Part shown: positions 9,889 to 32,502 of the stretch, piece after piece
How positions within the stretch are numbered: position 1 is the stretch's first letter
Layout of the letters: the number at the start of each line of letters is the position of its first letter
Origin: Hyphomicrobiales bacterium
Lineage (GTDB): Bacteria; Pseudomonadota; Alphaproteobacteria; Rhizobiales; Beijerinckiaceae
Direction of reading: 5' to 3'
DNA: 60,410 nucleotides
NCBI GenBank assembly: GCA_027484605.1
Contig: JAIXSR010000160.1
Coordinates: forward strand, 1-60,410
The notes under the pieces: generated by a model
Databases searched by the model: none
What the model was told of the DNA's origin: nothing
The model's input: only the letters and a program-made list of their open reading frames with translations
Made by a program: the position numbers and the translations under genes

Positions 9889-11478
9889 TCATCCCCAGGA
9901 GGCGGCCAGCGCATCGGCGTCGGTGATGACGGCCACGTTCTGCAGCGCGTAATTCACGGAGGCCGTGTGCCATTCGGCATTCATGGTCGAGCAGCAATCT
10001 TCCGGCACGACCATGAAATAGCCCTTGTCGGCGCCGGTCCGGGAGGTGTGCTCGATGGACATGTTGGTCCAGGCGCCCGTCACCACCACGATGTCGCGCT
10101 TCAGGGCCTTGAGCACGGTTTCGAGGCGGGTGCCTTCCCAGGCGCTCATGCGCTGCTTCTCGACGACATGATCGCCCGGCTGGGCCTCGAGCCCCGGCAC
10201 GGGCGCGACGCCCCAGGTGCCGCGCACCAGCGCCCGGGCATCGGCGAGGCCCTCGAAGAGCGGCGCATTCATCGTCACGCCCGGACAGCCGGGCTCGACC
10301 ACGAACCAGACATGGATCACCGGGATGCCTTTCGCGCGGGCTGCGGCGGCGAGGCGCGCGGCATTGCCGATGGCGTTCTGCTCGCGGCAATGCACGGGCG
10401 AGCCGGACGCGGCGAAGGCGCCGCCCTCCATCACGACATCGTTCTGCATGTCCTGGATGATCAGGGCGCAGCGCCCGGGATCGAGCGCATAGCCCGGCGA
10501 GGCCTTCTTCGTGCCGTTCCGGGCGATGCTGGCGCCGGCCTGCGGGGCCGAAGCGTTCCGGGCCGGGGCGTTCCGCATATAGGGCTCGCTGCGCGGGCCG
10601 ACCTTCGTGTCGACGGCATAGACCGAATGGGTGGCCGTGAGGAACAGGGTGCGGAAATCCGGCCCGCCCCAGGCGAGATTGCCGACGAGTTCCGGCACGC
10701 GCAGCTTGCCGATCAGCCGGCCATCGGGCGCATAGACCCAGACGCCGCCGGGGCCGCAGACCCAGACATTGCCGAACAGGTCGCATTTCATGCCGTCCGG
10801 CACGCCGGGCTCGCTGGCCGAGACGATGCCGGAGGCGAAAACCCGTCCATTGGCCAGCAGGCCATTGGGCTGGACATCGAAGACCCGGATGACGTGCTGG
10901 ACGGTGTCGTTGATGTAGAGCTTGCTCTCGTCCGGGCAGAAGCAGAGGCCGTTCGGCTGGTCGAACATCATGCGCTCGACCAGCAATTGCGGCGCACCGC
11001 CGCCGGGCGGGATCCGATAGACGCCCTGGAAGCCGAGCTGGCGCGGCCGCTCGACGCCATAGACCGGCATGCGCCCGTACCAGGGATCCGAGAAATAGAC
11101 TGCCCCGTCGGATTTCACGACGACATCGTTCGGGCTGTTGAGCTCGCGCCCGTCAAAATGCGAAGCGAGGGTCTCGCGGCGGCCATCCGGCCGCTCCCGC
11201 ACCAGCGTCGATGTCGCGTGTTCGCAGACGATGAGGTTCAGGTCGGCATCATAGGTCATGCCGTTGCACTTGTTGGCCGGGCGCATCACCTCGGTGATGC
11301 CGCTCCGGTCCCAGCGGCGGCGGACATCGCCGGGCATGTCCGAGAAGAGCAGATACTGGTCCCGCGGGTGCCAGACCGGCCCTTCCGTGAAGTCGAAGCC
11401 GGTGCCGATCTGGCGCACGGGCGCCCAGAGATCGACCAGATCGGCAAAAACCGGGTCAAGCGCGACATGCGTGGTCAT
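9889..11478 (-). CDS. fusion: SMP-30/gluconolactonase domain + isochorismatase-like hydrolase domain
   Basis: 529 residues in one continuous frame from ATG 11478, preceded by a GGAGG-rich ribosome site. Residues about 20-300 form an SMP-30 propeller with all metal ligands: E32 (TEGPVW), N117 (SPND), N176 (QPNG) and D228 (PDG). After an Ala/Asn-rich linker (about 301-328), residues about 335-529 are an isochorismatase/cysteine-hydrolase domain with D343 (IQDMQND) and K441 (VEKQR). The position that normally holds the nucleophilic Cys (TNxC) reads TNMS, i.e. S474. A lactonase joined to an amide or ester hydrolase would suit successive ring-opening steps. It is the last gene of the long minus-strand supercluster, 51 nt after the MBL gene. 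Confidence 0.85.
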   Translation of the reverse strand: MTTHVALDPVFADLVDLWAPVRQIGTGFDFTEGPVWHPRDQYLLFSDMPGDVRRRWDRSGITEVMRPANKCNGMTYDADLNLIVCEHATSTLVRERPDGRRETLASHFDGRELNSPNDVVVKSDGAVYFSDPWYGRMPVYGVERPRQLGFQGVYRIPPGGGAPQLLVERMMFDQPNGLCFCPDESKLYINDTVQHVIRVFDVQPNGLLANGRVFASGIVSASEPGVPDGMKCDLFGNVWVCGPGGVWVYAPDGRLIGKLRVPELVGNLAWGGPDFRTLFLTATHSVYAVDTKVGPRSEPYMRNAPARNASAPQAGASIARNGTKKASPGYALDPGRCALIIQDMQNDVVMEGGAFAASGSPVHCREQNAIGNAARLAAAARAKGIPVIHVWFVVEPGCPGVTMNAPLFEGLADARALVRGTWGVAPVPGLEAQPGDHVVEKQRMSAWEGTRLETVLKALKRDIVVVTGAWTNMSIEHTSRTGADKGYFMVVPEDCCSTMNAEWHTASVNYALQNVAVITDADALAASWG

Positions 11479-11529
11479 GGCCTCTTCCTCCGCCTTCCGG
11501 ATTTTCGGGGGTTCGGTCAGTTCCCGGGA

Positions 11530-12378
11530 TCAGACCGGGAACCAGTTCCGCTTCGGCACGCTCTGGACCAGCGGGCCCGGCACGGCCATGTCCAGCCGGC
11601 CGACCACCTGCCCCGCCTCGATCTTCGCGGGCTTGTCATGCACGGGCAGCAGGAAGCGGGAGGTGTTGAGCAGCTTCTTGATCGCCGCCTTTTCCTGCCG
11701 CTTCGACGTGCCGTGATTGCCGGTAACGCGCGGCTCGTCGGCATGGATCTCGTGATAGGGATCCACGATCTGGTCATTGAAATCGTAGATGACATCACCG
11801 CAGATCGTCGCCCGGCCCTCGGCCGTATCGACATGGATGTTCATCGAACCTTCGGTATGCGCGCCGGCCGCCTCGAGATAGCAGCCCGGGAACAGCTCGA
11901 TCATGCCGCTCAGCTCGAGATCCTCCAGCCGCAGCGCATGCTTGGTGTGGAGCCGGTCGATCAGGTGCTTGATGTCCGGGGCGGGATATTGCGGATGCAT
12001 CAGCCCTGAAACGGAATATTCCAGCTCGCGCCGGTTGATGATCACCGTGGTGTTCATCGGGAAGAGCTCGTCCTTGCCGGCATGGTCGATATGCAGGTGG
12101 GTATGCGCCACATAGCGGACATCGCCCATGCGCACGCCATGCTTCATCAGCTGGTTCTCGATCATGTTCTCGTGGAATTGCAGGCCCCGCATGCCGAGGC
12201 TCTCCATGATCTGGTTGTGGCGATAGCCGGTATCCACCACGACCGGCCAGGGCCCGCCCAGGATCAGGAAGCCATAGGTATAGACGCGCTTGCGCTGGCC
12301 GCAGCCGCGGCCCAGCACGAGGAAGCTCGATTCCAGCTCGATGTCGCCATAGTCGAGCACCTTGATTTCCAGCGGCAT
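11530..12378 (-). CDS. metallo-beta-lactamase-fold hydrolase, N-acyl homoserine lactonase-like
   Basis: 282 residues. The dinuclear metal motif is complete: VAHTHLHIDHAGK (HxHxDH, about 108-116), GAHTEGSMN (about 190) and CGDVIYDF (about 212), with a final HD in LLPVHDKP. This set and the length match the AiiA/AttM lactonase group. In this setting a catabolic lactone (for example one produced by ring oxidation) is at least as likely a substrate as a quorum-sensing signal, because no LuxI/LuxR-type gene is nearby. No signal peptide, so cytoplasmic. It lies between the amidohydrolase and the SMP-30 fusion gene in one transcription unit. Confidence 0.82.
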   Translation of the reverse strand: MPLEIKVLDYGDIELESSFLVLGRGCGQRKRVYTYGFLILGGPWPVVVDTGYRHNQIMESLGMRGLQFHENMIENQLMKHGVRMGDVRYVAHTHLHIDHAGKDELFPMNTTVIINRRELEYSVSGLMHPQYPAPDIKHLIDRLHTKHALRLEDLELSGMIELFPGCYLEAAGAHTEGSMNIHVDTAEGRATICGDVIYDFNDQIVDPYHEIHADEPRVTGNHGTSKRQEKAAIKKLLNTSRFLLPVHDKPAKIEAGQVVGRLDMAVPGPLVQSVPKRNWFPV

Positions 12379-12393
12379 GGGGGTTCCTCCTCG

Positions 12394-13272
12394 TTATGTC
12401 AGCTTGTAGGTCCGGCGGGCCGTGCCCGCGAAAATCTGCGCCCGGTCGGCCTCCGGCAGCGATGCCGCAGCCGCGCGATGGGCGGCGATAAGATCGGCAT
12501 AGGTCGCCCAGAGTTTCTCGATCGGGAAATTCGAGCCGAACAGGCAGCGTCCGGCGCCGAACAGCGCGACCGTCTCGCGCAGGATGAAGGCGATATGGGC
12601 GGGGTCATTCCTCCGCAGGAAGGTACCGAGACCGGAGAGCTTGCTCACGACATTCGGCTGCCGGGCCAGCAGGGTCATACCCGCGCGCCAGGCCGCGAGC
12701 CCGGCCCCAGAGAGGTCTTCCAGCATGCCGGCATGCTGGAGCACGAAGGGAACATCCGGGCATGCCGCGGCGAGTTCGGCCGCGCCTTCCATCTGGCCGG
12801 CAAAGACCTGGAGATCGAAGCTCCAGCCATAGCCGGCCAAAGCCGCGACATTGCGCTGGAGCCCGGGGTCGCGGGCGAGATCGGGGCCGGGAGCAAAACG
12901 GTAGAGCGGGTTCTCGTGCCAATGCAGCTGCATGCGGACGCCGCGCACAGAGGGCTCGGCCGCCAGCGCATCGAGCGCGGGGCGGACATCGCCAGCCAGC
13001 ATGTCGGCATAGGCGACAATCGCAACGGGGAACCCTGCCCGCCGGGCGGATTCGGCCACGAAACGCACTTCGTCCAGCGCCCGGCCGGGCGCCCAGTTCG
13101 CCTGGACAAAGACCGCGCCGGTCACGCCGCCCGCGGCGGCATCGGCGAGATATTCCTCGATCGGGTAATCGCGGCGGATCGGCTCGTAGGGGCCGAAGAT
13201 GCGCGGCTGCATCGGCCCGACCAGCCAGGGTAGGTCAGCCTGCCGCCAGATATGGAAATGCGCGTCGATCAT
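12394..13272 (-). CDS. amidohydrolase family 2 (TIM-barrel) hydrolase, lactonase-like
   Basis: 292 residues. The N-terminus MIDAHFHIW carries the HxH metal motif, QLHWHEN (about 129-135) and LQHAGML (about 191) supply further His, and LFGSNFPIEKL (about 238) has the typical C-terminal strand with an Asn where many members have Asp (GSDxP). The group includes 2-pyrone-4,6-dicarboxylate lactonase and L-fuconolactonase. Its ATG overlaps the stop of the CoxE-like gene by 4 bp, so it is translationally coupled to the molybdenum-hydroxylase unit. It is a good candidate for hydrolysing the oxidised product. Confidence 0.8.
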   Translation of the reverse strand: MIDAHFHIWRQADLPWLVGPMQPRIFGPYEPIRRDYPIEEYLADAAAGGVTGAVFVQANWAPGRALDEVRFVAESARRAGFPVAIVAYADMLAGDVRPALDALAAEPSVRGVRMQLHWHENPLYRFAPGPDLARDPGLQRNVAALAGYGWSFDLQVFAGQMEGAAELAAACPDVPFVLQHAGMLEDLSGAGLAAWRAGMTLLARQPNVVSKLSGLGTFLRRNDPAHIAFILRETVALFGAGRCLFGSNFPIEKLWATYADLIAAHRAAAASLPEADRAQIFAGTARRTYKLT

Positions 13273-14411
13273 GCCGCCCTCCCCCGCATCCCGGCGCCCT
13301 GCCCCAGTGCGAGCAGGTGCTGGCAGATCGCGGCGGTGGAATTGCCGTTGGCGAGCGCGGCGAGCATGGGCCGGATCGCGGCGAGCGCCTCGGTCTGCGG
13401 CTGGTAATCCGGGTCGGCCGCCAGCGGCGAGAACCAGTCGATCCGGAAGGCCCGGGCCGCCATGCGCCGCACGGCGCCGATCATGGCGGCGGGGTCACCC
13501 CGCTCGAGCCCGTCCGAGAGGATCGCCACCACGGCGCCGCGGGCATAGCCCGCAAAGCGGGGTACGGCGAGGAAGGCTGCCAGCGCATCGCCGATCCGCG
13601 TGCCGCCATCCCAGTCCGCCACGAGGCCGGAGGCCATGGTAAGCGCCTGTTCGCGGTTGCGCAGCTTCAGCGCCCGCGTGACGCGGGTGAGCCGCGTGCC
13701 GAAGGTGAAGACCTCGACGCGCGGCGCGGCCTGCACGATCACATGGGCCAGGGCAAGGTTGGCATCGCTCCGCTGCTTCATCGAACCGGAAACGTCGATC
13801 ATCAGCAGGATCGGCCGGGGCCGGCTGGCCCTGCGACGCCGGCTGAGGGCCATCACATCGCCATCGGTGCGGATCGCAGCACGCAGGCTGCGGGCAAGGT
13901 CGATCGTCGTGCCCCGGCGGGCCCGGCGGTAGCGATAGCCCCGCCGGCGCGGGAGGGCGGCCGGCAGGTCGCGGGCAAAGCGCACCAGCGTGTCGGCGGC
14001 TTCCGGCGGCCGCAATGCCCGGATGGCCAGAGCCTCGGCCTCGATGGCCTGCTGGCCGGTCTCGTTGATGCTCTCGCCGATCAGGATCTCGCGGCTGCCC
14101 TCGTCCTCCTGGACCTTCAGCTCCTCGTCGGGCTGCCAGTCATCCGCCTCGCCCGGCTCAGCCATGCCGCCGAGGAAATGGAAATCGAACAGGGCGTCGA
14201 AAGTGTCGCGCTGGTGCGGCTGCGGCGCCAGCGTCGCCCAGGCCGCCTGCCGGACCTGGTCGAGCGAGCGCGGCCCGAGCACGGTGATCGCCTCGAGGAA
14301 GGTCAAGGTCTGGTCGGGCGCGACGGCGAAGCCATGCTGGCGCAGCAAGGCCGGGAAGGCGACGAAGGGGCGGCTCGCGGCCGGCAGCGGGTTGGGGCGC
14401 GGATCCGTCAT
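13269..14411 (-). CDS. coxE: VWA-domain CoxE-like maturation protein
   Basis: 380 residues. The C-terminal half is a von Willebrand A domain with a MIDAS motif in MIDVSGSMKQRSD (DxSxS, about 203) and a second conserved segment WDGGTRIGDAL (about 268). CoxE and the MoxR-type ATPase CoxD act together in Oligotropha to insert sulfur and copper into the active site of CO dehydrogenase. Equivalent pairs accompany many non-CO molybdenum hydroxylases. It overlaps the CoxD-like gene by 4 bp upstream and the amidohydrolase by 4 bp downstream. The name reflects family only. Confidence 0.83.
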   Translation of the reverse strand: MTDPRPNPLPAASRPFVAFPALLRQHGFAVAPDQTLTFLEAITVLGPRSLDQVRQAAWATLAPQPHQRDTFDALFDFHFLGGMAEPGEADDWQPDEELKVQEDEGSREILIGESINETGQQAIEAEALAIRALRPPEAADTLVRFARDLPAALPRRRGYRYRRARRGTTIDLARSLRAAIRTDGDVMALSRRRRASRPRPILLMIDVSGSMKQRSDANLALAHVIVQAAPRVEVFTFGTRLTRVTRALKLRNREQALTMASGLVADWDGGTRIGDALAAFLAVPRFAGYARGAVVAILSDGLERGDPAAMIGAVRRMAARAFRIDWFSPLAADPDYQPQTEALAAIRPMLAALANGNSTAAICQHLLALGQGAGMRGRAA

Positions 14412-15292
14412 GCCGCCACCGCCGCGATCAGGGAATCGAGCCTCGGCCGGAGAAAGGCGAGATCCTCCTCGTCCTTCAGCGCCGCGCCGATGGACCGGCG
14501 GAACGCATCCGGCCAGGCGGCACCGGTCCGCGCGAGGGCGGTTGCGGCCTCTGCCCAGTCCACCGCCTCGGCCACGCCCGGCGGCTTGGTCAGCGGCTCC
14601 TGCCGCAGCAGGCCCACCGCGCGCACGATCGCCAGGGCCGTCTGCTCGGCCACGGCCGAGGAGCGCAGCATGATGATCGCCGCCTCGCGGGCGGGATCGG
14701 GATAGGCGATGTAGTGATAGATGCAGCGCCGCCGCAGCGCCTCGTGCAGGTCCCGCGTGCGGTTGGAGGTAAGGATCACGACCGGGCGATCCGCAGCCCG
14801 CAAGGTGCCGCGCTCGGGGATCGAGATCGAGAAATCCGAAAGGAATTCGAGCAGGAAAGCCTCGAATTCATGGTCGGAGCGGTCGATTTCGTCGATCAGC
14901 AGGACGGTGGAATCCGGCCGCCTGAGGGCCGAGAGCATCGGCCGCTCGATCAGGAAATCGTCGCGGTAGAGATCGGCGCTCTCGCCCTCGCGGGCCTGCC
15001 GGATGGCGAGCATCTGGCGCGGATAGTTCCATTCGTAGAGGGCGGCGCTGGCATCGATGCCCTCGAAGCATTGCAGCCGGATCAATTGCCGCCCGAGAAT
15101 GCCGGACAGGGCCTTCGCCGCCTCGGTCTTGCCGACGCCCGGCGCGCCTTCCAGCAGCAGCGGCTTGCCGAGCGCCAGCGACAGGAACGCCGCCGTGGCG
15201 ATGCCGTCATCGGCGAGGTAATAGGCCGCGCGCAGGGCTTCCGACAGGGCCTCGGGGCTGGACAGACCGGCGGGAAGCGCGCGCAGGGTCAT
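14408..15292 (-). CDS. coxD: MoxR/CoxD-type AAA+ ATPase
   Basis: 294 residues. Walker A GAPGVGKTEAAK (about 52-63), Walker B STVLLIDEIDRSD (about 128-140), sensor-1 VILTSNRTRDLHEAL and an arginine-rich RRRCIYHYIAYPD are present. CoxD-like ATPases remodel the apo-enzyme during cofactor maturation. The gene lies 3 nt downstream of the second large-subunit gene and overlaps coxE-like by 4 bp, which fits a dedicated chaperone pair for this hydroxylase. Confidence 0.87.
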   Translation of the reverse strand: MTLRALPAGLSSPEALSEALRAAYYLADDGIATAAFLSLALGKPLLLEGAPGVGKTEAAKALSGILGRQLIRLQCFEGIDASAALYEWNYPRQMLAIRQAREGESADLYRDDFLIERPMLSALRRPDSTVLLIDEIDRSDHEFEAFLLEFLSDFSISIPERGTLRAADRPVVILTSNRTRDLHEALRRRCIYHYIAYPDPAREAAIIMLRSSAVAEQTALAIVRAVGLLRQEPLTKPPGVAEAVDWAEAATALARTGAAWPDAFRRSIGAALKDEEDLAFLRPRLDSLIAAVAA

Positions 15293-15295: not shown

Positions 15296-16330
15296 TCACA
15301 AGGCTCCGCCGCGACGCGGTTGCGGCTTGACGCCGCCATTGGCCCGCAGGCCGCGGAGGATCTTCTCCGGGGTGATCGGCAGATCGTTCACCCGCACGCC
15401 GATCGCATTGTAGACCGCATTGGCGATGGCCGGCAGGACCGGGTTCGCGCACATCTCGCCCGGGCCCTTGCCGCCGAAGGGCCCGTCCGGCGCGGGGCGT
15501 TCGAGGATGGTGATGCTGTAGGGCGCGATGTCGCCCGGGCCGGGCATCAGGTATTCGTTGAAATCGCGCGGGCCGTGATCGGGATTCGGGTAATAGGGTT
15601 CCGGCGTCTCGTAGAGGGCATGGCTGATGCCCATCCATGCGCCGCCGACCAGTTGCTGCTCCACCATTTTCGGATTGATGACGCGGCCGAGCTCATAGGC
15701 GGAGCTCATGCCGAGAACGGCCACCTCGCCGGTCTCGTCATCCACCTCGACATCCGCCACGAGGCAGGCATGGGCGAAGGCAGTATTGGGGTTCATCTCG
15801 CCGGTCTCGGGATCGACCGAGGAGAGCGGGATCAGGAAGATGCCACGCCCGGCAATCGTCTTGCCCTGCTTGAACTGGGCGGCCTGCGCGGTGGCCCGCA
15901 CGGTGATTGCGCGCGAGGGTGCGCCCTTCACATGGATATTGCCCTTGCCGTCGGTGACGAGATCGGCGGCATTGACCTCGAGTTCCTCGGCCGCCGCCTC
16001 CAGCAGCACGCCCCTAGCCTCGCGGGCAGCAGCGATGACGGCATTGCCCATCCGGTGCGTCCCGCGCGAGGCGAAGGAGCCCATATCATGCGGGCCGGTA
16101 TCGCTGTCGGCGGTGTCGACATAGACATCCTCGACCGGCACGCCGAGGGTCTCCGCCGCGACCTGCCGGGTCACCTGCTTCATGCCCTGGCCGAGATCGA
16201 TGGCCGAGAGCGCCACGGTGAATTTCCCGTCCGGGTTCGAATGGATCAGCGCCTGGCTCGGATCGCCGCCGAGATTCATGCCGATCGGATAATTGACGGA
16301 CGCCATGCCGCGTCCCCTGAACCGGGCCAT
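15296..16330 (-). CDS. molybdenum hydroxylase large subunit, C-terminal half (MoCoBD_2)
   Basis: 344 residues from ATG 16330, preceded by AAGGAGG that overlaps the last Arg codons of the upstream gene. It starts MARFRGRGMASVNY and corresponds to the second molybdopterin-binding domain of XdhB/CoxL-type subunits. Visible are DLGQGMKQV (about 53), SFASRGTHRMGNA, SSAYELGRVINPKMVEQQLVGGAWMG (split family pattern) and GGKGPGEMCANP (about 305) with the active-site Glu. The upstream gene supplies the other half. The frame differs from it, with stop TGA, one nucleotide, then ATG. Both parts must assemble to bind the molybdenum cofactor. Confidence 0.87.
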   Translation of the reverse strand: MARFRGRGMASVNYPIGMNLGGDPSQALIHSNPDGKFTVALSAIDLGQGMKQVTRQVAAETLGVPVEDVYVDTADSDTGPHDMGSFASRGTHRMGNAVIAAAREARGVLLEAAAEELEVNAADLVTDGKGNIHVKGAPSRAITVRATAQAAQFKQGKTIAGRGIFLIPLSSVDPETGEMNPNTAFAHACLVADVEVDDETGEVAVLGMSSAYELGRVINPKMVEQQLVGGAWMGISHALYETPEPYYPNPDHGPRDFNEYLMPGPGDIAPYSITILERPAPDGPFGGKGPGEMCANPVLPAIANAVYNAIGVRVNDLPITPEKILRGLRANGGVKPQPRRGGAL

Positions 16331-18065: not shown

Positions 18066-18079
18066 GGCTGGCTGCCTCC

Positions 18080-18565
18080 TCAGGACCGGCGCTGCGCCGG
18101 AAGGGTCCGGGCGGCGGCGAGAATGGCCTGGATGATCGGCTCGTAGCCTGTGCAACGGCAGATATTGCCGGCAATGGCATCGATCACGTCCTCGCGGCCG
18201 GGATTGGGGTTGCGGTCCAGAAGCGCCTTCGCCGCCGTCAGCATGCCCGGTGTGCAGAAGCCGCATTGTGCGGCGAAATGCTCCATGAAGGCGTTCTGGA
18301 GCGGATGGAGGCTGGGCCCGTCCGCCATGCCGGAGACGGTCTCGATGCTCGCCCCCTCGCAGGAGGCGGCCAGCGTCAGGCAGGCGAGGCGCAATTCGCC
18401 GTCGATCAGCACCGAGCAGGTGCCGCAGGTACCCTGCCCGCAGCCATATTTGGGCCCGAAATCGTTGAGGCCGCGCCGCAGCACGGTCAGCAGGTTGTCC
18501 GCCGGATCGGCAAAGGCGGCCCGGTCGGAGCCGTTGAGGCGGAACTGTACGGGAACTTTCGCCAT
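18080..18565 (-). CDS. 2Fe-2S subunit of molybdenum hydroxylase (CoxS-like)
   Basis: 161 residues, the usual CoxS length. The plant-type cluster ligands are C42, C47, C50 and C62 (GCGQGTCGTC), and the second cluster ligands C101, C104, C136 and C138 (CGFC and CRC). It relays electrons from the molybdenum centre to FAD. The order FAD subunit, Fe-S subunit, large subunit is the CoxMSL order. It starts 11 nt after the FAD-subunit stop. Confidence 0.93.
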   Translation of the reverse strand: MAKVPVQFRLNGSDRAAFADPADNLLTVLRRGLNDFGPKYGCGQGTCGTCSVLIDGELRLACLTLAASCEGASIETVSGMADGPSLHPLQNAFMEHFAAQCGFCTPGMLTAAKALLDRNPNPGREDVIDAIAGNICRCTGYEPIIQAILAAARTLPAQRRS

Positions 18566-23862: not shown

Positions 23863-26088
23863 TCAGGTCCTGCCGGTAGCGCCCCGGAAGCGGCCATGAT
23901 GCAGCGCGCGGAAATGCTGCACGAGGGCCGCCGCGAAGGCGGGGTCATTGATATGATGGGGAAGCCGGATCAACTGCCGGGTCGCGGTGACGCGGATCGT
24001 CGAGGCCAGGGCGTCGAACAGGGCGGAATCGGCGGCGGGATCCCAGAAGGGCTGGCCCGGCGCATCCAGCGCCGAGACGCCGCCTTCCGGCAGGAGGAAG
24101 CGCACCGGCCCCTCCATCTGGTTGAGCCGCTCGCCGATCCAGCGGCCCATGCGGGCATTCTCCTCCGCCGTGGTCCGCATCAAGGTGATCTGCGGGTTGT
24201 GCGGGTAGAAGAGCCGCTGGCGGTACTGCGCAGGCACGGTATCGGGCGCAGCGAAATTGACCATGTCGAGCGCGCCGACCGAGCCGATATAGGGGATCTT
24301 CGTGCGGATCACCGCACCGAAGCGATCCTCGGTGGCGGGCAGGATGCCGCCCATCATCATGTCGCAGATCTCGGTGGTCGAGACGTCGATCACGCCGGGA
24401 ACGAGGCCGGAATCGATCAGCTTCTCCATGGAGCGGCCGCCCGTACCGGTGGCGTGGAAGACCAGCGGCTCCCATTCCTTGTCGATCAGCCGCGTCACCT
24501 GCTGGACGCAGGGCGTCGTCACGCCGAACATGGTCAGCCCGACAAGCGGCTTGTCCGGCGCAGGGCGGCGGATGGCCGGCCCGTGCTGCTGCTCGTGGAA
24601 GCTCCGCGCCATGGCCGCCATGGCCTGGGCCGCATTGCCGAGCACGGTGCGCGAGACGCGGTTCAGCCCCTGAACGTCGGTCACCGAATGCATCATCGTG
24701 ATGTCCGTCGCGCCGACATAGGCCGCGACATTGCCCGAGGCCATGGTCGAGACCATCAGTTTCGGCACGCCGACCGGCAGCGTCTGCATGCCGGCGGTGG
24801 CAATGGCCGTGCCGCCCGAGCCGCCGGCCGAGATAATGCCGATCACGCCCTGCTGGCGCGCCATCCAGGCGCGGAAGGCATCGGTCATGGCGGCGACGGC
24901 CTTGCCCCTGTCGCCGGAGGCTATGCCGGCGGAGCCGGTCGGCAGGGCCAGCGCAACCTCCTGCGCCGAGACATCCGCCCCCTGGTTTCGGCCATTGGTC
25001 GAGAGATCGACGAGGCGGGTACGCAGGCCGGCAGCCTTGATCGCATCGCGCAGGAAGCGGAGTTCCTCGCCCTTCGTGTCCAGCGTGCCGGCGATGATGA
25101 CATGCGGTTCCTGCGGCGCGCGGGCAGCCAGCGGCGAGACATCGCCGACCCGGCGCCCGTCGATCGTGGCGAGGGTCGGCCGGGAGATGGTGCGGGCCTG
25201 CGCCTCGATCCGCGCAGCGGGCACATCCTGCGACCAGCGCGTCGGGAGGACGGGATTGGCGTTGTAGACCCGGATCGGCCCCTGCGACGCTGCGGCGGCC
25301 GGCCGGCTTTCCGCGGAGGGCGCACTGCCCGGCGCGGGTTCCGGCTCGTCATGGCTGTGCCGGCCGACGCCGAGCAGGCGCTGCTGGAGATCGCGGTCAG
25401 CCGCAATCACCGACGAGGCGATCACCTGATGGATCCGGCCATTGACCATGATGGCGATCGTATCCGACATCTGGGTCGCGACGCCGATATTCTGCTCGAT
25501 CACCAGGATCGAGACATCGCCTTCCGCCGCCAGGCGCACCAGCGTTTCCTCGACATGGGCGACGATGACGGGAGCAAGGCCCTCGGTGGGTTCGTCCATG
25601 ATGAGCAGGCGCGGATTCATCAGCAGCGCGCGGCTGATCGCCAGCATCTGCTGCTCGCCGCCGGAAAGCTGGGCGCCGCCATTGCGCCGCCTTTCGGCCA
25701 GGCGCGGGAAAACCTCGTAGATGCGTTCCGGCGTCCAGGCGCCCTTCCCACGTGTCATCAGGCGGAGATGCTCGTCCACCGTCAGCGAGCGCCAGAGCCG
25801 CCGGCCCTGGGGCACATAGCCGATGCCCATCCGCGCGATCTCGGCCGGCGTGCGGCCGACGAGTTCCTCGCCCATGAAGCGGATCGAACCCGAGGAGACC
25901 GGCACGAGCCCCATGATGGCCTTGCAGGTCGTGGTCTTGCCCATGCCGTTTCGGCCGACCACCGAGAGCACGCCCGAATGGAGGGCGAGATCGACGCCCT
26001 GCACCGCATGCGAGCGGCCATAGAAGACATTGACGCCCTGGAGTTGCAGGATCGGCGCGCCGGTGCCGCGGGAGAAGCGCTCACTCAT
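23863..26088 (-). CDS. fusion: LivF-type ABC ATPase + Tm-1-like (UPF0261) domain
   Basis: 741 residues in one frame from ATG 26088, which overlaps the end of livG by 8 bp. Residues about 13-245 are a branched-chain amino-acid type ATPase with Walker A GRNGMGKT (45-52), signature LSGGEQQ (141-147) and Walker B LLIMDE (161-166). A Pro/Ala/Ser-rich linker (about 246-325) leads to a Tm-1-like domain (about 329-735) starting [17 protein letters not shown] and including [10 protein letters not shown]-like and [10 protein letters not shown]-type segments. Tm-1-like domains bind ATP. The fusion ties this domain physically to an importer and, with the next gene, reconstructs both halves of plant Tm-1. 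Confidence 0.88.
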
Positions 26089-26884
26089 GGCCGCCTCCCA
26101 GATAGAGTTCCTGCACCTCGGGATCGTTCTCGATCTCCTCCGGCCCGCCTTCCTTGAAGATCCGGCCATTATGCATCATCGTCACGCTCTCGACGACGCG
26201 GAGCGCGACATCCATGTCGTGCTCAATGATGATGTAGCCGATATGGGCCGGCAGCGTCGTCAGGATCGAGACAAGGTCGCGCCGCTCGGTCGGCGAAAGG
26301 CCGGCCGCCGGCTCGTCGAACAGGATGAAACGCGGCGCGCCCGAGAGGGCGAGGGCGATTTCCAGCTGTCGCTGCTGGCCATAGGCAAGTTCGCCGACCA
26401 GCCGGTCCTTCTCCGCGCTCAGGTGCACCGCCTCGACCAGCATCTCGGCCGCATGGACCAGCGCATCGTCCCGCCGCGGGCGGATGAGCGAGAATCGGTT
26501 CCGCGAGACGCCCCGGCAGGCGAGATAGACATTGTCGATCACCGACAGGCCGGCGAAGAGCGAGGAGATCTGGTAGGTGCGGCGCAGCCCGCGCCGGATC
26601 CGCTCATGCGGCGGGAAGACGGTCACATCCTCGCCGAAGAAGCGGATCAGCCCGGCCGTGGGCAGGAAGTCGCCGGTGATGCAGTTGAAAAGGGTCGTCT
26701 TGCCGGCCCCGTTCGAGCCGAGCACGGCACGGCGCTCGCCGGGCCGGACCGAGAGCGTGACATCGGAAATCGCCGCGAGCGCGCCGAACATCTTGGTGAT
26801 GCCGCGCAGTTCGAGCGCGTTGCCGGCGCTGACATGGCTCGAGCCGAGGGCGACGGGCCGCGGCGGGTTCACCGGTGCGTTCAT
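26081..26884 (-). CDS. livG: branched-chain-amino-acid-type ABC transporter ATPase LivG
   Basis: 267 residues from ATG 26884, which overlaps the livM stop (ATGA). Walker [11 protein letters not shown] (about 55-64), [10 protein letters not shown] signature region, Walker [12 protein letters not shown] and H-loop IIEHDMDVA are all intact, and the C-terminal LYLGGGHE is the typical LivG end. It pairs with the LivF half of the next gene. The hydrophobic amino-acid uptake family also imports amides, urea and aromatic acids, so the substrate is open. Confidence 0.92.
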
Positions 26885-27942
26885 GCCGCCCCTCCCCCGG
26901 CCTGCGGATCCTGCTGGCGGCGACGGGCGCGCCAGCGGTCCCAGAGGCCCAGTACGCCATCGGGCGAGAAGAGCACGATGGCGAGGAAGCCGAGCCCGAT
27001 GATCAGCTTGAAGCGTTCGGCCGAGAAACCGAAAAAGCCGAGGATATCGGGCGAGAAGACCTGCAGGATCACGTAGATGAAGGCGCCGATGAAGGGCCCG
27101 AGCGGCCGCCGCATGCCGCCGACCACGGCCACGACGAGCACGTCGATCGCTGCCGGAATGCCGATCGTGCCCGGCGCGATCTGCGCGTTCTGCCAGACCA
27201 GCAGGATGCCGCCGGCCGAGGCGAAGATGCTGGCCAGAGCATAGGCCGCGACGCGATGGGCGGTGACGTTGAAGCCGAGCGCCGCCATGCGGCGGGGATT
27301 GTCGCGCACGCCCTGCAGCGCCAGGCCGAAGGGCGAGCGCGAGACATAGACCACCGCCCCATAGGACAGGGCAGCCAGCACAAGGCTGAGATAGTAGAAG
27401 GGCACCGGATCGCGCCAGTTCACCCCGAAGAGCTGGGGCGGCAGGACGAGGTTGAAGCCAGAATACCCGTTGAAGATCGTGTAGTTCTGCCGGGTGAAAT
27501 AGAAGAAGGCCGCCGCGATGGCGAGCGTGATCATGATCGTGTAGATGCCCTCGGTCCGCACGGCCAGGGCGCCGGAGACCGTGGCGAAGAAGGCGGCCAC
27601 CAGGAAGGCGGCGGGCAGGACGATCCACCAGGCGAGGCCGAGGCTGACCGTGACCGTGCCTGACGTGCCGAGGATCGCGACCATGTAGCCGGCCACGCCG
27701 GCCACGGTCATCTGCAGCAGGCTGACCATGCCGCCATAACCGGCGAGGAACATCAGGCTGAGACCGATCATGCCGAGAATGAAGGTCCAGCCCATGATCT
27801 GGAAGAGCCAGAACGTGTTGGCCACGACCGGCAGGAAGAGCAGAACCACCGCCAGCGCCCACCAGGGTGCGGGGATGCGCTCGAACCAGAGCTTCTGGTC
27901 GGCGCGGTTGACGAAGCGGGGGGCGTGGTCGGTCATCGCCAT
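26881..27942 (-). CDS. livM: branched-chain-amino-acid-type ABC permease LivM
   Basis: 353 residues from ATG 27942 (MTDH two codons later at 27936 is possible). Around nine to ten hydrophobic segments. The LivM signatures GLALQGVRDNPRRMAALGFNV (split: LQGVRDNPRRM, ALGFNVTAHR; about 192-215) and VVGGMRRPLGPFIGAFIYV (about 275) are clear. It lies 3 nt after livH and overlaps livG. Confidence 0.92.
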   Translation of the reverse strand: MAMTDHAPRFVNRADQKLWFERIPAPWWALAVVLLFLPVVANTFWLFQIMGWTFILGMIGLSLMFLAGYGGMVSLLQMTVAGVAGYMVAILGTSGTVTVSLGLAWWIVLPAAFLVAAFFATVSGALAVRTEGIYTIMITLAIAAAFFYFTRQNYTIFNGYSGFNLVLPPQLFGVNWRDPVPFYYLSLVLAALSYGAVVYVSRSPFGLALQGVRDNPRRMAALGFNVTAHRVAAYALASIFASAGGILLVWQNAQIAPGTIGIPAAIDVLVVAVVGGMRRPLGPFIGAFIYVILQVFSPDILGFFGFSAERFKLIIGLGFLAIVLFSPDGVLGLWDRWRARRRQQDPQAGGGAA

Positions 27943-27945: not shown

Positions 27946-28962
27946 CTAGCGCCTCGAACCGAGCAGGCCCTGCGGGCGGAAGGCCAGCACGGCAGCCATG
28001 ATCAGGAAGGTGAAGACCACCGAATAGGTCGGGGCATAGACGAAGCCCATCTGCTCCGTGACGCCGATGATCAGCGCGCCGATGGCCGCACCGATGATCG
28101 AGCCCATGCCCCCGACGATCACCACGACGAGGCTGGCCAGCAGGAAGCGCGTATCCTCGCCCGGCGAGAGGGACTGGAAGGTGCCGCCGATAATGCCGGC
28201 CATGCCGGCGAGCCCGGCCCCGAAGCCGAAGACTGCGAGGAAGACCAGCTGGATGCGCACGCCGGATGCCGCCAGCATTTCCCGGTCGTCCACCCCGGCG
28301 CGGATGAGCATGCCGAGCGCGGTCCGGTTCAGGACGAGCCACATGGCCACGCCGATGACGATGGCAGCGATCAGGATCCAGACGCGCACCGCGGGGTAGC
28401 GCAGCCAGTTGGTGGCGCCCGTGCTGGCATTGATCGAGTTGATGATCGGCAGTTCCATCGGCCCCGTCAGGAAGCCGGGCGCGAGGATCGAATAGGACTG
28501 GCCGCCCCATAACCACAGCATCAGATCGGCGAGGACGATGGAAATGCCGATGCTGACCAGCGTCTGGCGCAGTTCCTCGCCCTCCATCTTGGCGAAGATG
28601 AAGCGCTGCATCAGCAGGCCGAGCAGACCCACCACGACGAAGACGACCGGGAAGGCGATGAACCAGGAGCCCGTGGCGCTGGAAATCTCGTAGCCGAGGT
28701 AGCCGCCGAGCAGGAAGAGCGAGCCATGCGCGAGATTGACCACCCGCATCAGGCCGAAAATCAGGGTGAAGCCGGCTGCGACCAGGAAATACAGGGCACC
28801 GAGCGTGATGCCGCCGAGCAGCGCGTTGAGGAAGATCTGCTTGCGGCCCCATCTCGCCACGAGTTCCGGCGGCCAGGGCGAAAAGACAAGCCAGAGGAAG
28901 ACCGCGATCAGGATCGCGATGACCAGGCTCCGGAGCGGATTGCGCTTGATGATGTCATCCAT
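27946..28962 (-). CDS. livH: branched-chain-amino-acid-type ABC permease LivH
   Basis: 338 residues from ATG 28962 (MDDIIKRNPL). An ATG 29 codons upstream lacks family character. The first family block is GGITLGALYFLVAAGFTLIFGLMRVVNLAHGSLFLLGGY (split: LVAAGFTLIFGLM and NLAHGSLF, about 48-75), followed by GMGSIIGAAIGALIIG (about 286). LivH in this family pairs with LivM. It starts the importer part of the operon, about 170 nt after the AraC-type regulator. Confidence 0.92.
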   Translation of the reverse strand: MDDIIKRNPLRSLVIAILIAVFLWLVFSPWPPELVARWGRKQIFLNALLGGITLGALYFLVAAGFTLIFGLMRVVNLAHGSLFLLGGYLGYEISSATGSWFIAFPVVFVVVGLLGLLMQRFIFAKMEGEELRQTLVSIGISIVLADLMLWLWGGQSYSILAPGFLTGPMELPIINSINASTGATNWLRYPAVRVWILIAAIVIGVAMWLVLNRTALGMLIRAGVDDREMLAASGVRIQLVFLAVFGFGAGLAGMAGIIGGTFQSLSPGEDTRFLLASLVVVIVGGMGSIIGAAIGALIIGVTEQMGFVYAPTYSVVFTFLIMAAVLAFRPQGLLGSRR

Positions 28963-29130
28963 CGCGGCGTGTCTCGGAAGATCCTGTCCTCGGACCGGCG
29001 CCCTGCTTGTGCAAAGTTCCGCCGGGTCCGGATGGCGCCCCATCGCCACCCCTCTCAGCCAAGACTAGAATGAGAGCCCAGCGGCCCGCTTTCCCGAACG
29101 TCTTTTCTTTCGGGACGGCCGCATTCCGGC

Positions 29131-29967
29131 TCAATGGACGGCTCCAAGCACGCTGCGCCTGTACGCGCTGGGCGGGACGACGCCGTTGGCGATGAAGAAG
29201 CGCGAGAAGCTCGCCGGGGTGGCGAAGCCGAGATCCAGCCCGATCTCCGACACCGTCTCCTCGCCGCGGGCCAGCCGGTCGATCGCGCGCTCCATCCGCA
29301 GGGCATTGAGATAGAGCGTCGGCGGGAGGCCGACCTGCTCGCGGAACAGCTTGAAGAAATGCGGTCGCGACAGGCCGGCAGCCCGGGATACGGCGCTGAG
29401 ATCGATCGGCTCGCCCAGCGTCTCGCCCAGCAGGCTGATCGCCCGGCGGATGCGGAAATCACGGAAGCCGAAGCGCGCCCGGTCGCTGGCCTGCCCGCCG
29501 GACTGCCATTGCCAGGTCTGGTCGAAGGCCGCCTGGGTCAGGGCGCTGAGCCTGTCCTCGAAATTGCCGTCCCCGCCACAATGCGCGGCGAGTTGCCGGG
29601 CGGTTTCGGCGACGAGGCGGGCGATATGGTCGTCCATGCTGACGACCGGACGGCCGAAGCGCAGGATTTCCGAGGCCTGGCCGCTGGCCTCGACGAACCA
29701 GCCGGGCCGGATGTAGAGCACCAGCGTCAGCGTCGGGGTGCGGCGGTCCACCGGCATGAAATAATGGGGCTGCCACGGGCTGATGGCCGTGGCCTCAAGC
29801 GGGTTGAGCGGATGGGCCCGGCCATCGATGACGACTTTCGCAGCCGGTCCGCGGACATGGAAAATGAGATGCCCTTCCCGATGGGCATGGGGCACCATCG
29901 GCCGGTCCAGCTCATACAGGCAAGCCCGCCCGAACGCACCATGTGCGACAGCGTGAGCGATGCTCAT
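29131..29967 (-). CDS. AraC-family transcriptional regulator
   Basis: 278 residues from ATG 29967, preceded by GGGAGG at good spacing. The N-terminal part (about 1-90) is a cupin-like sensing domain with HAHREGHLIFHVRG and SPWQPHYFMPVD. The C-terminal part (about 180-278) holds two HTH motifs: PIDLSAVSRAAGLSRPHFFKLFREQVG and VSEIGLDLGFATPASFSRFF, with the closing PSAYRRS. Placed between the Fe-ADH-like gene and livH, it probably controls the supercluster in response to the imported compound. Confidence 0.9.
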   Translation of the reverse strand: MSIAHAVAHGAFGRACLYELDRPMVPHAHREGHLIFHVRGPAAKVVIDGRAHPLNPLEATAISPWQPHYFMPVDRRTPTLTLVLYIRPGWFVEASGQASEILRFGRPVVSMDDHIARLVAETARQLAAHCGGDGNFEDRLSALTQAAFDQTWQWQSGGQASDRARFGFRDFRIRRAISLLGETLGEPIDLSAVSRAAGLSRPHFFKLFREQVGLPPTLYLNALRMERAIDRLARGEETVSEIGLDLGFATPASFSRFFIANGVVPPSAYRRSVLGAVH

Positions 29968-30064
29968 CGGTTTCCTCCCGCTGGTTTTTTTTCGCGGTTT
30001 ACGACCAATGTATATGGCCTCGGCCTGCTGGCAACCGGCGATTCGGAACAAAGATGTCGCGGGT

Positions 30065-31129
30065 TCACCATGCGGCCTCGAGAATGCGTCGGCAGTCGCC
30101 CGGGGTCAGGCGACGCGGGTTGGCAAGGGCGGCCGGATCATTGGCCGCCATCTCGGCGAAACGGTCGAAGCCGCGGCGATCGATCCCGATCTCGCGCAGG
30201 CTTGTCGGCAGGCCCAGCCCGCGGGCAAAGGCGCCGATCTCGGTGCTGAGCGAGACCTGCCCGTCGCGGCGGGCCAGGGTCATCGCCAGGGCAGCGTAGC
30301 GATCCCCGACGGCCTGGGCGTTGAAATCGGCCATGGCCGCGAGAAGCGGGGCATGCAGGTCGCCCGGCAGGAAGCCGGAAGTGAGTTCGGGTTCGATCGG
30401 GCAAGCGAGCGCATCGACGCCGCCCACGGCCTTTTCGAGCGCGAGGCCGGCGGTCATCGCCGCGGCCATGACCTCCCGCCGCGCCTCGCGATGGCCCGGC
30501 ACGCCGAGCACCACCGGGAGCCACCGCGTCATGCGGCGCACGGCCTCGAGCGCGAGGCCATCGGCCGGCGGGTTGTAGCTGGGGCTGGCATAGGCCTCGA
30601 TCGCATGGACCATGATCTCCATGGCCGAGGCCGCGATCCGGCGGATCGGGGCATGTTCGAGAACAGTGGGATCGACGATCACCCGGTCCGGCCGCGGGCA
30701 GGCTGCGGGACGCCCGTCCCGGGGCCGGACATGGCGGCCGAGGCCGAGATCGAACAGACCGACCGGGACGGCAATCACGGTCAGCCGCTCGCCCTGCCGG
30801 GTGGCTTCTGCCGCGACAAGCCGCGCCTGGCCGATGGCCGGGGCACCGCCCACGGCGAGGAGGGTCGTGGTGCCGATCTCGCGCAGGCTGGCCAGCAGGG
30901 CCCGCGTCTCCCCGCGCGAGGGGGCGCCGGGCGGCAGGACATGCACCGTCAGGGCAATCCGGCCGAGGGCCTCGCGCACGCGGTCGAGCGCAGCGTCGCC
31001 GCCGGGCTCGTCATCGGCCAGCAGCAGGGCCTGGGACAGCGGACCGGTTTCCTCCGGCAAGGCATCCTCGATGGCGGCCTCGGCGAAATGGGTCCGTGTC
31101 AGATAGCCTATCAGGGTCATCGGCAGCAC
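30065..31129 (-). CDS. iron-containing alcohol dehydrogenase family protein with degenerate metal site
   Basis: 354 residues. The overall Fe-ADH/maleylacetate-reductase pattern is recognisable: VGGAPAIGQARLVAAEATRQGE in place of the GGGSxxDxAK coenzyme loop, DPTVLEHAPIRRIAASAMEIMVHAIEAYAS (split: SAMEIMVHAIEAY, about 173-185) and a C-terminal GLPTSLREIGI. Metal ligands are eroded: the usual Asp is Glu or absent in SAMEIMVH, and the first of the two later His (family HGxxHxL) is Ala in DALACPIEP. Activity with iron is doubtful. Located between livK and the AraC gene, it may reduce a pathway aldehyde with zinc or none, or have another role. Confidence 0.7.
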   Translation of the reverse strand: MLPMTLIGYLTRTHFAEAAIEDALPEETGPLSQALLLADDEPGGDAALDRVREALGRIALTVHVLPPGAPSRGETRALLASLREIGTTTLLAVGGAPAIGQARLVAAEATRQGERLTVIAVPVGLFDLGLGRHVRPRDGRPAACPRPDRVIVDPTVLEHAPIRRIAASAMEIMVHAIEAYASPSYNPPADGLALEAVRRMTRWLPVVLGVPGHREARREVMAAAMTAGLALEKAVGGVDALACPIEPELTSGFLPGDLHAPLLAAMADFNAQAVGDRYAALAMTLARRDGQVSLSTEIGAFARGLGLPTSLREIGIDRRGFDRFAEMAANDPAALANPRRLTPGDCRRILEAAW

Positions 31130-31182: not shown

Positions 31183-31206
31183 CGGCTGGCCCCGGAGGGC
31201 CAGCCG
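31183..31206 (-). terminator. rho-independent-like terminator after livK
   Basis: A perfect 10-bp GC stem (31183-31192 with 31197-31206) and 4-nt loop lies about 30 nt downstream of the livK stop on the minus strand. A TTCTCTCCTT tail follows. It would separate the highly expressed binding protein from the downstream genes. Confidence 0.65.
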
Positions 31207-31236
31207 CACAGGCTTGTGTGTCGATGAGCGGAGGGC

Positions 31237-32502
31237 TCAGCCGCCGGAGCGCAGCTTGGCGCAGTCCACCACGTTGCGCGACGGCAGGCCGAGGGCGCGG
31301 AACTGGTCGGCGGTCATGCCCAGGGTCTGGGTGACGTTGTCGGTCTTGGCGACCATCTTCGTCGTCATGTTGCCATCCGGCCCGTCGACCACCTCATTGA
31401 TGAACACCGTGCCGGTGGCCTGGCGGTTCTCGTTGAGGGTGATCTTGCCGACCGGGCTGTCCAGCTGGAGCTTGTTCAGCGCCTCCTTGAACTTGGCCTG
31501 GCCATTCGAGAGGTCACCGCCGGCCGCTTCGAGGCCCTTGATCGCCGCGAGCGTGGCCGTGTAGTAGCCGAGCCCGAAGAGCGAGGGCGAGGGCAGACGC
31601 TGGTTGGCCGGGAACGAATCCTGGTAGAGCTTCACATAGGAAGTCCAGGCCGGATCCTTGTTGTCCGTCGCGAAGGGACCGGAAACCGGCGTGCCCTTCA
31701 GGGCGTCCTTGGCGCGGCCGCGGGCAGTCAGCACGGTCTGGTCGGCGAGGATGGTCCCGCCGATCAGGCGGGTCTTCTCACCGGCCTGCTGGTACTGGTT
31801 GAGGAAGTTGATCGCATCCGTGCCGCCGAGGCCGAGATAGATCGCATCCACGTTTTCCGGCAACTGCGCGATGATGCCGCCGAAATCGGACTGGCCGAGC
31901 GGCTGCCAGAAGCGCTGGACGATATCGCCGCCCGCCTTGCAGTAATCGACCGCGAAGCCCATGAAGTTGGTGTAGCCGAAGGAATAGTCGGCAACGATCG
32001 TGGCGATCTTCTTGTACCCCTTCGTCTTGACGGCATAGGAGCCGAGGCCGAAGCCCCATTGGCCGCCATCCAGGTTGAAGCGGTAGAAGTTCGGCGCGGG
32101 ATCAACCCAGGTGGTTTCCAGCGCGCCGGAAATGCCGTTGATCACCACCTTGTCGGGGATGGTCTTGGCGAAATCGCGCATGGCGATGCCTTCCGAGCCG
32201 GAAAGCGGGCCGATGATGAGATCGACCTTGTCCTGCTCGATCAGCTTGCGCGCCATGCGGACCGTGGTGTCCGGCTTGGTGTCGGTCGGCGCGACAACGG
32301 TCTCGATCTTCTTGCCGGCAATGGTGTTGTTGATCTGCTTGAGGGCGAGTTCGACGTTGCGGACGCCATCCTGGCCCCCGGTCGCAAACGCGCCTTCAAG
32401 CGCGACGAGAATGCCGATCTTGATCGTTCCGCCCTGCGCCATGGCTGCGCCAGGCAGCATGAGGGCGGTAATCGCAACGGCTCCGAGCAAAGTCTTGCGC
32501 AT
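31237..32502 (-). CDS. livK: branched-chain-amino-acid-type substrate-binding protein LivK
   Basis: 421 residues from ATG 32502, preceded by GGGAGGAA. The signal peptide MRKTLLGAVAITALMLPGAAMA is cleaved near residue 22. The mature protein begins with the type-I periplasmic binding-protein pattern IKIGILVALEGAFATGGQDGV, then LIEQDKVDLIIGPLSGSEG, DAIYLGLGGTDAINFLNQY and TGTVFINEV. It should serve LivHMG and LivF-Tm-1 although separated from them by two genes. A hairpin follows its stop. Confidence 0.92.
   Translation of the reverse strand: MRKTLLGAVAITALMLPGAAMAQGGTIKIGILVALEGAFATGGQDGVRNVELALKQINNTIAGKKIETVVAPTDTKPDTTVRMARKLIEQDKVDLIIGPLSGSEGIAMRDFAKTIPDKVVINGISGALETTWVDPAPNFYRFNLDGGQWGFGLGSYAVKTKGYKKIATIVADYSFGYTNFMGFAVDYCKAGGDIVQRFWQPLGQSDFGGIIAQLPENVDAIYLGLGGTDAINFLNQYQQAGEKTRLIGGTILADQTVLTARGRAKDALKGTPVSGPFATDNKDPAWTSYVKLYQDSFPANQRLPSPSLFGLGYYTATLAAIKGLEAAGGDLSNGQAKFKEALNKLQLDSPVGKITLNENRQATGTVFINEVVDGPDGNMTTKMVAKTDNVTQTLGMTADQFRALGLPSRNVVDCAKLRSGG

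Follow-up and report, generated by a model that had tools for sequence, protein, structure and literature searches.

The window (the whole stretch of 60,410 nt analyzed here, belonging to a source genome of 4.0 Mb in 171 contigs) contains at 9889–32619, on the minus strand, a run of genes that is probably one catabolic gene cluster and a predicted operon. Its parts are members of known families; what distinguishes this molybdenum (Mo) hydroxylase cluster is a flotillin/Tm-1 importer module and a peptide tail on the N-terminal half (N-half) of the split Mo subunit. The interpretation that we favor, with a probability of about 0.5, is that import and oxidation are physically coupled, the tail peptide docking the Mo enzyme to a module made of the importer, Tm-1, the flotillin and the second of two SRPBCC proteins (SRPBCC2). 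A LivKHMGF-type ATP-binding-cassette (ABC) importer, with LivF fused to a Tm-1 domain, would bring in an organic compound, a split Mo hydroxylase resembling nicotinate dehydrogenase and matured by CoxD/CoxE would oxidize it, and lactonase-like hydrolases would process the oxidized product. The module would be located at the membrane through the flotillin, and one of its members would be the docking site for the C-terminal RFSSVFGTRRR of the flexible, Pro-rich tail, while the likely role of the SRPBCC proteins is to deliver a hydrophobic ligand, either substrate or quinone, to the Mo enzyme.

The Mo hydroxylase block consists of the following features, identified, as all others below, by Pfam, NCBIfam and PDB sequence searches:

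18577..19401, minus strand: FAD subunit, CoxM-like (PF00941, PF03450)
18080..18565, minus strand: 2x[2Fe-2S] subunit, CoxS-like (PF01799, PF00111)
16332..18077, minus strand: Mo-cofactor subunit N-half (best PDB match 3hrd_A, 7e-59; likely ATG near 18068)
16335..16745, minus strand: Pro-rich tail of the N-half, start approximate (RFSSVFGTRRR followed by the stop; motif at about 16335–16367)
15296..16330, minus strand: Mo-cofactor subunit C-half with the catalytic-Glu motif GKGPGEM (PF20256; 3hrd_B, 1e-46; start inferred)
14408..15292, minus strand: CoxD-like MoxR AAA+ ATPase (AAA models)
13269..14411, minus strand: CoxE-like VWA protein (PF05762, 7e-49)

The enzyme has the FAD, the two [2Fe-2S] and the Mo-cofactor domains of the xanthine oxidase family, together with the catalytic Glu (KGPGEM in 67/68 loci, the one miss, L090, being a wrong reading frame), and its catalytic motifs are intact. 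The Mo-cofactor subunit is encoded by two separate open reading frames in 68/68 loci tested, so a frameshift or assembly artefact was rejected as the origin of the split.

Relatives were collected with a profile of the first SRPBCC protein (SRPBCC1). The arrangement is widespread: in 84,980 species genomes the profile found 366 relatives, the best 80 of which were used for the comparison of loci, and the genes of the window were mapped onto these 80 loci and four plasmid loci. The profile was also run on 385 genomes of the class and 397 of the phylum, with matches in 87 and 64, respectively, and 36 chosen stretches were read. Named records among the near relatives of the source genome are Rhabdaerophilum and metagenome-assembled genomes filed as Beijerinckiaceae or Methylobacterium. 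The loci were classified as type A (full cluster), type B (importer, flotillin and SRPBCC genes without the type-A Mo block) and type M (Mo block, but neither importer nor flotillin).

The C-terminal portion of the type-A N-half is a Pro-rich tail of 81–174 aa (complete copies measured), closed by RFSSVFGTRRR or a close variant immediately before the stop. The terminal motif is present in 77/77 complete type-A copies (91 loci, minus 7 without the subunit on the contig and 7 cut before the stop), many of them from close relatives and thus not 77 independent observations, versus 0/7 in type M, where the N-half tails are only 15–16 aa long (six measured). The mean majority fraction is 0.88 in the last 11 columns of the tail versus 0.38 at positions −60 to −25; the final three Arg are invariant and the Phe residues conserved, while the linker upstream drifts. 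The strict motif terminates 71 frames of at least 100 aa in 3.1 Mb of cluster-locus sequence, in which some loci overlap, and all of them are this subunit (one of the 71 being a continuation of it on the next stretch).

The seven type-M loci (L221–L226 and L240) contain the Mo block and the amidohydrolase 2 gene, with an AraC gene and one SRPBCC in 6/7; no cluster-type importer, flotillin, metallo-beta-lactamase or SMP-30/SGL–isochorismatase gene was found in the 20-kb stretches of them that were read. Given this distribution, the most likely binding partner of the tail is a protein missing from type M. The tail is retained in loci without the metallo-beta-lactamase (L144, L234) and in loci without amidohydrolase 2 (L077, L110, L118), which excludes these two proteins as sole docking partners. 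As type M also keeps CoxM and, in 6/7 loci, an SRPBCC1-type protein, the candidates are the importer/Tm-1, the PF09370 protein, the flotillin, SRPBCC2 and the SMP-30/SGL–isochorismatase fusion.

The tree built from SRPBCC domains places the type-M proteins within the type-A SRPBCC1 group (100/98, 95/92). None of the six type-B SRPBCC1 belongs to this group, and the type-A and type-B SRPBCC2 group together (100/99); 16/41 inner branches of this tree, many of them short, are open and long branches meet among its T rows. In the Mo-subunit tree, type M groups with the type-A row L233 at 100/99. The root of the latter is not trusted, because its sole outgroup row has a branch length of 10, so the nesting of type M in type A rests on the SRPBCC tree. 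Given this nesting, type M apparently derived from type A, and the loss of the transport module was apparently accompanied by that of SRPBCC2 and of the tail.

The tight gene order could be explained by co-expression alone, and the two halves of the cluster do occur separately in types B and M, where the type-M Mo enzymes presumably work without a tail. These points would suit joint expression without any physical complex, the tail serving the folding, stability or turnover of the Mo enzyme. We regard this alternative as somewhat unlikely. If the tail were a stability tag, type M should have it as well, yet it is absent there along with the transport module, and a fixed terminus as short as these 11 residues on a fast-drifting linker is typical of binding peptides.

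The three invariant terminal Arg and the conserved Phe could also be read as a membrane-binding peptide, whose basic, aromatic C-terminus would place the Mo enzyme on lipid, where it would pass electrons to quinone, and no protein partner would be involved. A precedent of sorts is the proposal, in PMC4240915, that CoxG recruits CO dehydrogenase to the membrane. This reading seems to us unlikely, since the peptide has merely 11 residues, including the polar SS and a G, and the type-M enzymes, which maybe face the same electron acceptor, do without the tail.

The genes of the module to which the tail would dock according to our preferred reading, coupled import and oxidation, are listed here together with that of SRPBCC1:

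27946..29049, minus strand: LivH-type permease (PF02653)
26881..27942, minus strand: LivM-type permease (PF02653)
26081..26908, minus strand: LivG-type ATPase, start uncertain (PF00005, PF12399)
23863..26169, minus strand: LivF-type ATPase fused to the Tm-1 N-terminal region (UPF0261), 768 aa (PF00005, PF06792, PF23189)
22990..23859, minus strand: Tm-1 C-terminal TIM barrel as a separate gene (PF09370, 3e-128; PDB 2p10, 2e-118)
20321..22960, minus strand: giant flotillin of 879 aa, with N-terminal hydrophobic segment, Band_7 domain, long rod and Flot C-domain (PF01145, PF15975)
19854..20291, minus strand: SRPBCC1 (PF10604, 4e-28; 77–98% identity in seven relatives)
19400..19852, minus strand: SRPBCC2 (PF10604)

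With the binding protein LivK listed further below, this gives the full set of a Liv-type ABC importer, i.e., a substrate-binding protein, two BPD_transp_2 permeases and two ATPases. Of the two parts of Tm-1, UPF0261 is joined to LivF in one protein and the TIM barrel is encoded by the gene that follows. The flotillin assignment is based on its domains (Band_7 PF01145, 58 bits; Flot PF15975, 118 bits), and the protein does not reach the FloT equivalog (26.8 bits versus a cut-off of 700). The rod has an 11-residue repeat, on which a super-period of 44 residues is superimposed (mean BLOSUM62 score of 1.37 at lag 44 versus at most 0.11 in 50 shuffles). Counted from the first ATG of the frame, type-A flotillins measure 844–1297 aa in 79/80 loci, the only short one being that of L127 (667 aa), and type-B flotillins 558–734 aa in 12/12. 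The cluster flotillin is about twice as long as human flotillin.

The flotillin is an attractive partner for the tail because, according to PMC11260169, the human protein builds cages attached to the membrane, and proteases are held in cages of HflK/C. The sequence-only reading of this DNA had proposed a flotillin microdomain as the site where the Mo enzyme is held. This gains indirect support from the confinement of the C-terminal peptide to the flotillin-bearing type A, but G485 has in one genome, at separate places, both a flotillin locus of type B and a type-M enzyme lacking the tail, and a flotillin as such is thus insufficient. A bolder version of the idea is that the giant flotillin would form a membrane-bound enclosure, the RFSSVFGTRRR peptide on its Pro-rich tether loading the Mo hydroxylase into the flotillin/Tm-1 assembly at the importer, with the cargo setting the length of the rod and the substrate passing from the transporter to the SRPBCC carriers and then to the Mo enzyme. 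We consider it improbable. The Pfam scans of the 20 cluster genes named no encapsulin, and the likeness to an encapsulin-style cargo peptide is one of analogy only.

Concerning the SRPBCC proteins, the gene of SRPBCC2 is next to that of the FAD subunit in type A, and in type B the protein forms a fusion with an MDR oxidoreductase, which ties this domain to a redox enzyme. CoxG-type SRPBCC was tried and rejected as their identity, by comparison of sequences, not of folds: Pfam assigned only Polyketide_cyc families, NCBIfam assigned none, and no CoxG-named chain was among 38 PDB sequence matches. The AlphaFold model of SRPBCC1 was poor (mean predicted local distance difference test score, pLDDT, of 58.8). 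According to PMC12005517, an HflK/C mutant of Escherichia coli has low ubiquinone through reduced IspG; this links SPFH proteins to respiration, not to quinone carriage.

Several observations weigh against coupled import and oxidation. The flotillin, Tm-1, the PF09370 protein, SRPBCC2 and the SMP-30/SGL–isochorismatase fusion are indistinguishable as partners of the tail, because a flotillin was seen in every type-A locus used. Besides G485, mentioned above, G543 looks alike: it probably carries a B and an M locus, evidence for the second locus being limited to an SRPBCC pair and a frame of 507 aa. The loss of the tail in type M may be one evolutionary event, so there are few independent points, and the correlation of tail and module is suggestive rather than replicated. 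Finally, there are promoter-like sites inside the cluster, and thus there may be more than one transcript; a single one is predicted only.

The last point derives from the layout of the cluster. The remaining genes of its 5′ part are:

31237..32619, minus strand: LivK-type periplasmic binding protein with signal-like N-terminus (Peripla_BP_6, 3e-59; likely start near 32502)
30065..31129, minus strand: Fe-alcohol-dehydrogenase-like protein, fast-evolving (PF25137, 2e-23; PF00465 below cut-off; 34–39% identity in G049, G030 and G057)
29131..30051, minus strand: AraC-family regulator (PF12833, 5e-19)

The cluster thus runs from LivK (31237–32619) to the SMP-30/SGL–isochorismatase fusion (9889–11478), in the transcribed order LivK, Fe-alcohol-dehydrogenase-like, AraC, LivH, LivM, LivG, LivF–Tm-1, PF09370, flotillin, SRPBCC1, SRPBCC2, CoxM, CoxS, Mo N-half, Mo C-half, CoxD, CoxE, amidohydrolase 2, metallo-beta-lactamase and SMP-30/SGL–isochorismatase. 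Every part named from the letters alone is confirmed on the minus strand by the Pfam and NCBIfam domain searches; the count of nineteen genes on a single strand holds as to the strand and becomes 20 once the AraC regulator and the Fe-alcohol-dehydrogenase-like gene are included. The intergenic distances are 107 nt past LivK and 13 and 81 nt on either side of the AraC gene; from there on, the genes overlap or are separated by at most 29 nt, except for 51 nt preceding the last gene, the exact starts of LivM, LivG and both halves of the Mo subunit being uncertain. Terminator-like sites at 9400–29300 are at chance level (8 observed versus 7.8 expected). Promoter-like sites amount to 2 versus 2.4 expected at 9400–29300, one of them upstream of SRPBCC1, and to 2 versus 0.4 expected at 28800–34000, one of them on the minus strand at the AraC gene. 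The Fe-alcohol-dehydrogenase-like protein is the least conserved of the cluster in G055, G049, G030 and G057, and it departs from what we take to be the usual metal-ligand pattern around its HAIEA motif.

The cluster behaves as a single inherited unit in the alphaproteobacterial loci read. The stretch from LivG to the SMP-30/SGL–isochorismatase fusion is spanned by 62 of the 85 loci examined, and its gene order is identical in all 62, with losses of amidohydrolase 2 in 3, of the metallo-beta-lactamase in 2 and of LivH/LivM in 1 (contig edge). As far as the contigs extend, the order is also identical in the best 80 of the 366 SRPBCC1 loci, in all of which the cluster flotillin adjoins SRPBCC1. 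Among 61 relatives that formed a fixed set, the identical 15 genomes hold the cluster-type flotillin, the Mo N-half, the LivF–Tm-1 fusion and the full SMP-30/SGL–isochorismatase fusion, the LivF–Tm-1 fusion being cut by contig ends in two of them (G007 and G060); in G051 the Mo subunit is present and the other three signature genes were not found in cluster form. The same order in 62 loci and the co-occurrence in 15/61 genomes indicate that the arrangement is not due to chance. The independent recombination of blocks in relatives, which the sequence-only reading had named as evidence against its supercluster, is indeed seen outside type A, the importer/flotillin half and the Mo half being separate in types B and M, but not within the 62 spanning type-A loci, which are unshuffled. 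Plasmids of Shinella and Yoonia carry the cluster. Carriage by viruses was rejected, as none of 51 pattern matches in viral contigs was a relative.

The genes beyond the cluster ends vary between genera, so the boundaries that had been drawn at first look right. Beside the cluster, the window contains at 6810–9826 genes for a PuuE-like allantoinase, a deaminase-type amidohydrolase and a transthyretin-like protein resembling 5-hydroxyisourate hydrolase (HIUase), as do G002, G012 and G015. An HIUase gene does not follow the cluster in G005, G008, G055, G049, G030 (only 1.7 kb visible beyond) and G057, and the flank past the cluster end is not visible in G004 and G013, where the contigs end. With the HIUase missing from that place in six relatives, the purine pathway suggested by this neighborhood (HIUase, PuuE, deaminase) was rejected.

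The downstream end of the cluster encodes the hydrolases:

12394..13272, minus strand: amidohydrolase 2, fuconolactonase-like, with Asn in strand 8 (PF04909, 2e-47)
11530..12378, minus strand: metallo-beta-lactamase-fold protein, lactonase-like (PF00753; HxHxDH in 64/64 loci)
9889..11478, minus strand: SMP-30/SGL and isochorismatase-like fusion, Cys replaced by Ser (PF08450, PF00857)

The isochorismatase domain, surveyed in 64 loci, has Ser in place of the nucleophilic Cys (GAWTNMS in 57/57 uncut copies, 7 being cut at this place); otherwise the triad is present by pattern (Asp in 63/64, Lys in 60/64), so that it deviates from the Asp-Lys-Cys of cysteine hydrolases. True isochorismatases, which cleave enol ethers, are likewise not known to have the Cys. 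Amidohydrolase 2 contains FGSN[FY]P, with the strand-8 Asp changed to Asn, in 61/61 uncut copies (1 cut); at this position its solved relatives 4dlf and 6uvz have Asp and Asn, respectively. A resemblance to lactonases is seen in three of the four hydrolase domains: in two of them below NCBIfam cut-offs (amidohydrolase 2 reaches 108.7 bits versus a cut-off of 400 for the COG3618 L-fucono-1,5-lactonase) and in SGL by Pfam, its PDB matches including putative gluconolactonases. Judging from the Ser for Cys and the lactonase-like neighbors, the hydrolases seem to lean toward lactone or enol-ether chemistry over amide hydrolysis.

These data bear on the pathway first proposed from the DNA, i.e., uptake of an N-heterocycle, hydroxylation by the Mo enzyme and hydrolytic ring opening. 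Family-level leads in its direction are the closest solved Mo subunits, those of nicotinate dehydrogenase, split at the same point, and the matches of the isochorismatase domain, which include RutB and biuret hydrolase, below cut-off. Nevertheless, the proposal looks doubtful: the Cys-to-Ser change of the isochorismatase, the strand-8 Asn of the amidohydrolase and the lactonase resemblance weigh against such a pathway, the HIUase is not a constant neighbor, and no ring-cleaving oxygenase appeared in the Pfam scans of the 20 cluster genes. No result names the substrate. The N-halves carry GGGFGGKVD in 75/75, the aligned xanthine oxidase having GGGFGGKET, so that Val replaces what we take to be the purine-binding Glu (E802 of xanthine dehydrogenase), and the enzyme does not qualify as a xanthine dehydrogenase. 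Form I CoxL bears a Cys in its active-site loop, AYxCSFR. This loop is absent from the N-half, which has TAMRGFG in 74/75 (1 not matched by the pattern) where the aligned CoxL 8uem has ACSFRI.

The reduced and variant forms were considered as well. Type B comprises 12 loci (L204–L209, L212, L220, L239 and L146 of Variovorax, plus the variants L210 and L211) that contain the importer, LivF–Tm-1 (one long frame here too, and two genes in Thermomicrobium), the flotillin and both SRPBCCs; a PF09370 gene was not seen in L220. Their SRPBCC2 is fused to a quinone-reductase-like MDR, confirmed by Pfam in L204, for which the nearest NCBIfam model is NADPH:quinone reductase (277 bits versus a cut-off of 348); homologous frames occur in eight further loci, in L210 and in L211, and in L212 only a 511-aa open frame was seen. 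L210 has a divergent, unsplit Mo hydroxylase on the opposite strand (6626–8893), adjoining its flotillin block, and FAH, PcaD-like and Amidohydro_1 genes often adjoin type-B loci. More distant arrangements were also observed. On the Thermomicrobium roseum plasmid (L147, 12905–30114), a Liv importer, Tm-1, PF09370, a cyclase, FAH, two PEP-utilising-type proteins and an unsplit Mo hydroxylase form a distant parallel with no annotated flotillin. In L216, L217 and L237, a PF09370 protein, an SRPBCC and an unfused Tm-1 stand next to a divergent Liv importer, with neither flotillin nor Mo block, which suggests an older importer–Tm-1–SRPBCC core. L227 and L228 have Tm-1, PF09370 and SRPBCC downstream of an ABC importer, with a BMP-type, not Liv-type, binding protein in L227, and L229 (G670) has a flotillin–importer block, divergent SRPBCCs, a metallo-beta-lactamase and an aldehyde dehydrogenase, without Mo block.

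In mostly freely accessible literature, no paper on the combination of these parts was found, only papers on single ones. To our knowledge, bacterial flotillins have few defined clients. Here a flotillin is genetically bound to a specific importer and a specific enzyme, and a short peptide on the enzyme comes and goes with these partners. The cluster thus allows a flotillin-associated metabolic assembly to be tested and offers a context for finding the roles of Tm-1/UPF0261 and PF09370 proteins. If the flotillin enclosure described above were real, RFSSVFGTRRR would act in bacteria as the cargo peptide of an SPFH compartment.

Among known systems, nicotinate dehydrogenase of Eubacterium barkeri (NdhFSLM, PDB 3hrd) has its Mo subunit in two chains split at the same place, shares the motifs GGGFGGKxD and RGFG, and provides the best matches of both halves (3hrd_A and 3hrd_B); unlike the type-A N-half, its large chain has 425 aa and so no tail of that length, and we know of no flotillin, SRPBCC or Liv importer beside its genes. 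The cox cluster of CO dehydrogenase (CoxMSLDEFG) is alike in its FAD, FeS and Mo subunits, its SRPBCC neighbor and its CoxD/CoxE pair, for which a role in maturation of CO dehydrogenase is described in PMC4240915. It differs in that here AMRGFG replaces the active-site loop, the subunit is split, no CoxF was recognized in the cluster, and the SRPBCCs are of Polyketide_cyc2 type without a CoxG match. Bacterial Tm-1 pairs (UPF0261 and TIM barrel, a pairing discussed in PMC5028733) also stand by an importer, as on plasmids of Rhizobium, Sinorhizobium and Thermomicrobium; the cluster differs from them in the fusion of the first domain to LivF and in the addition of flotillin, SRPBCCs and Mo enzyme. 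Type B, for instance in Variovorax paradoxus CP063167 and in L204–L209, shares LivHMKG, LivF–Tm-1, TIM barrel, flotillin, SRPBCC1 and SRPBCC2 in one run, but has LivK inside the run, the SRPBCC2–MDR fusion, a shorter flotillin and no type-A Mo block. Lastly, the cage-forming human Flot1/2 and HflK/C resemble the cluster flotillin, known here from its sequence, in the Band_7 domain, the Flot C-domain and the charged rod.

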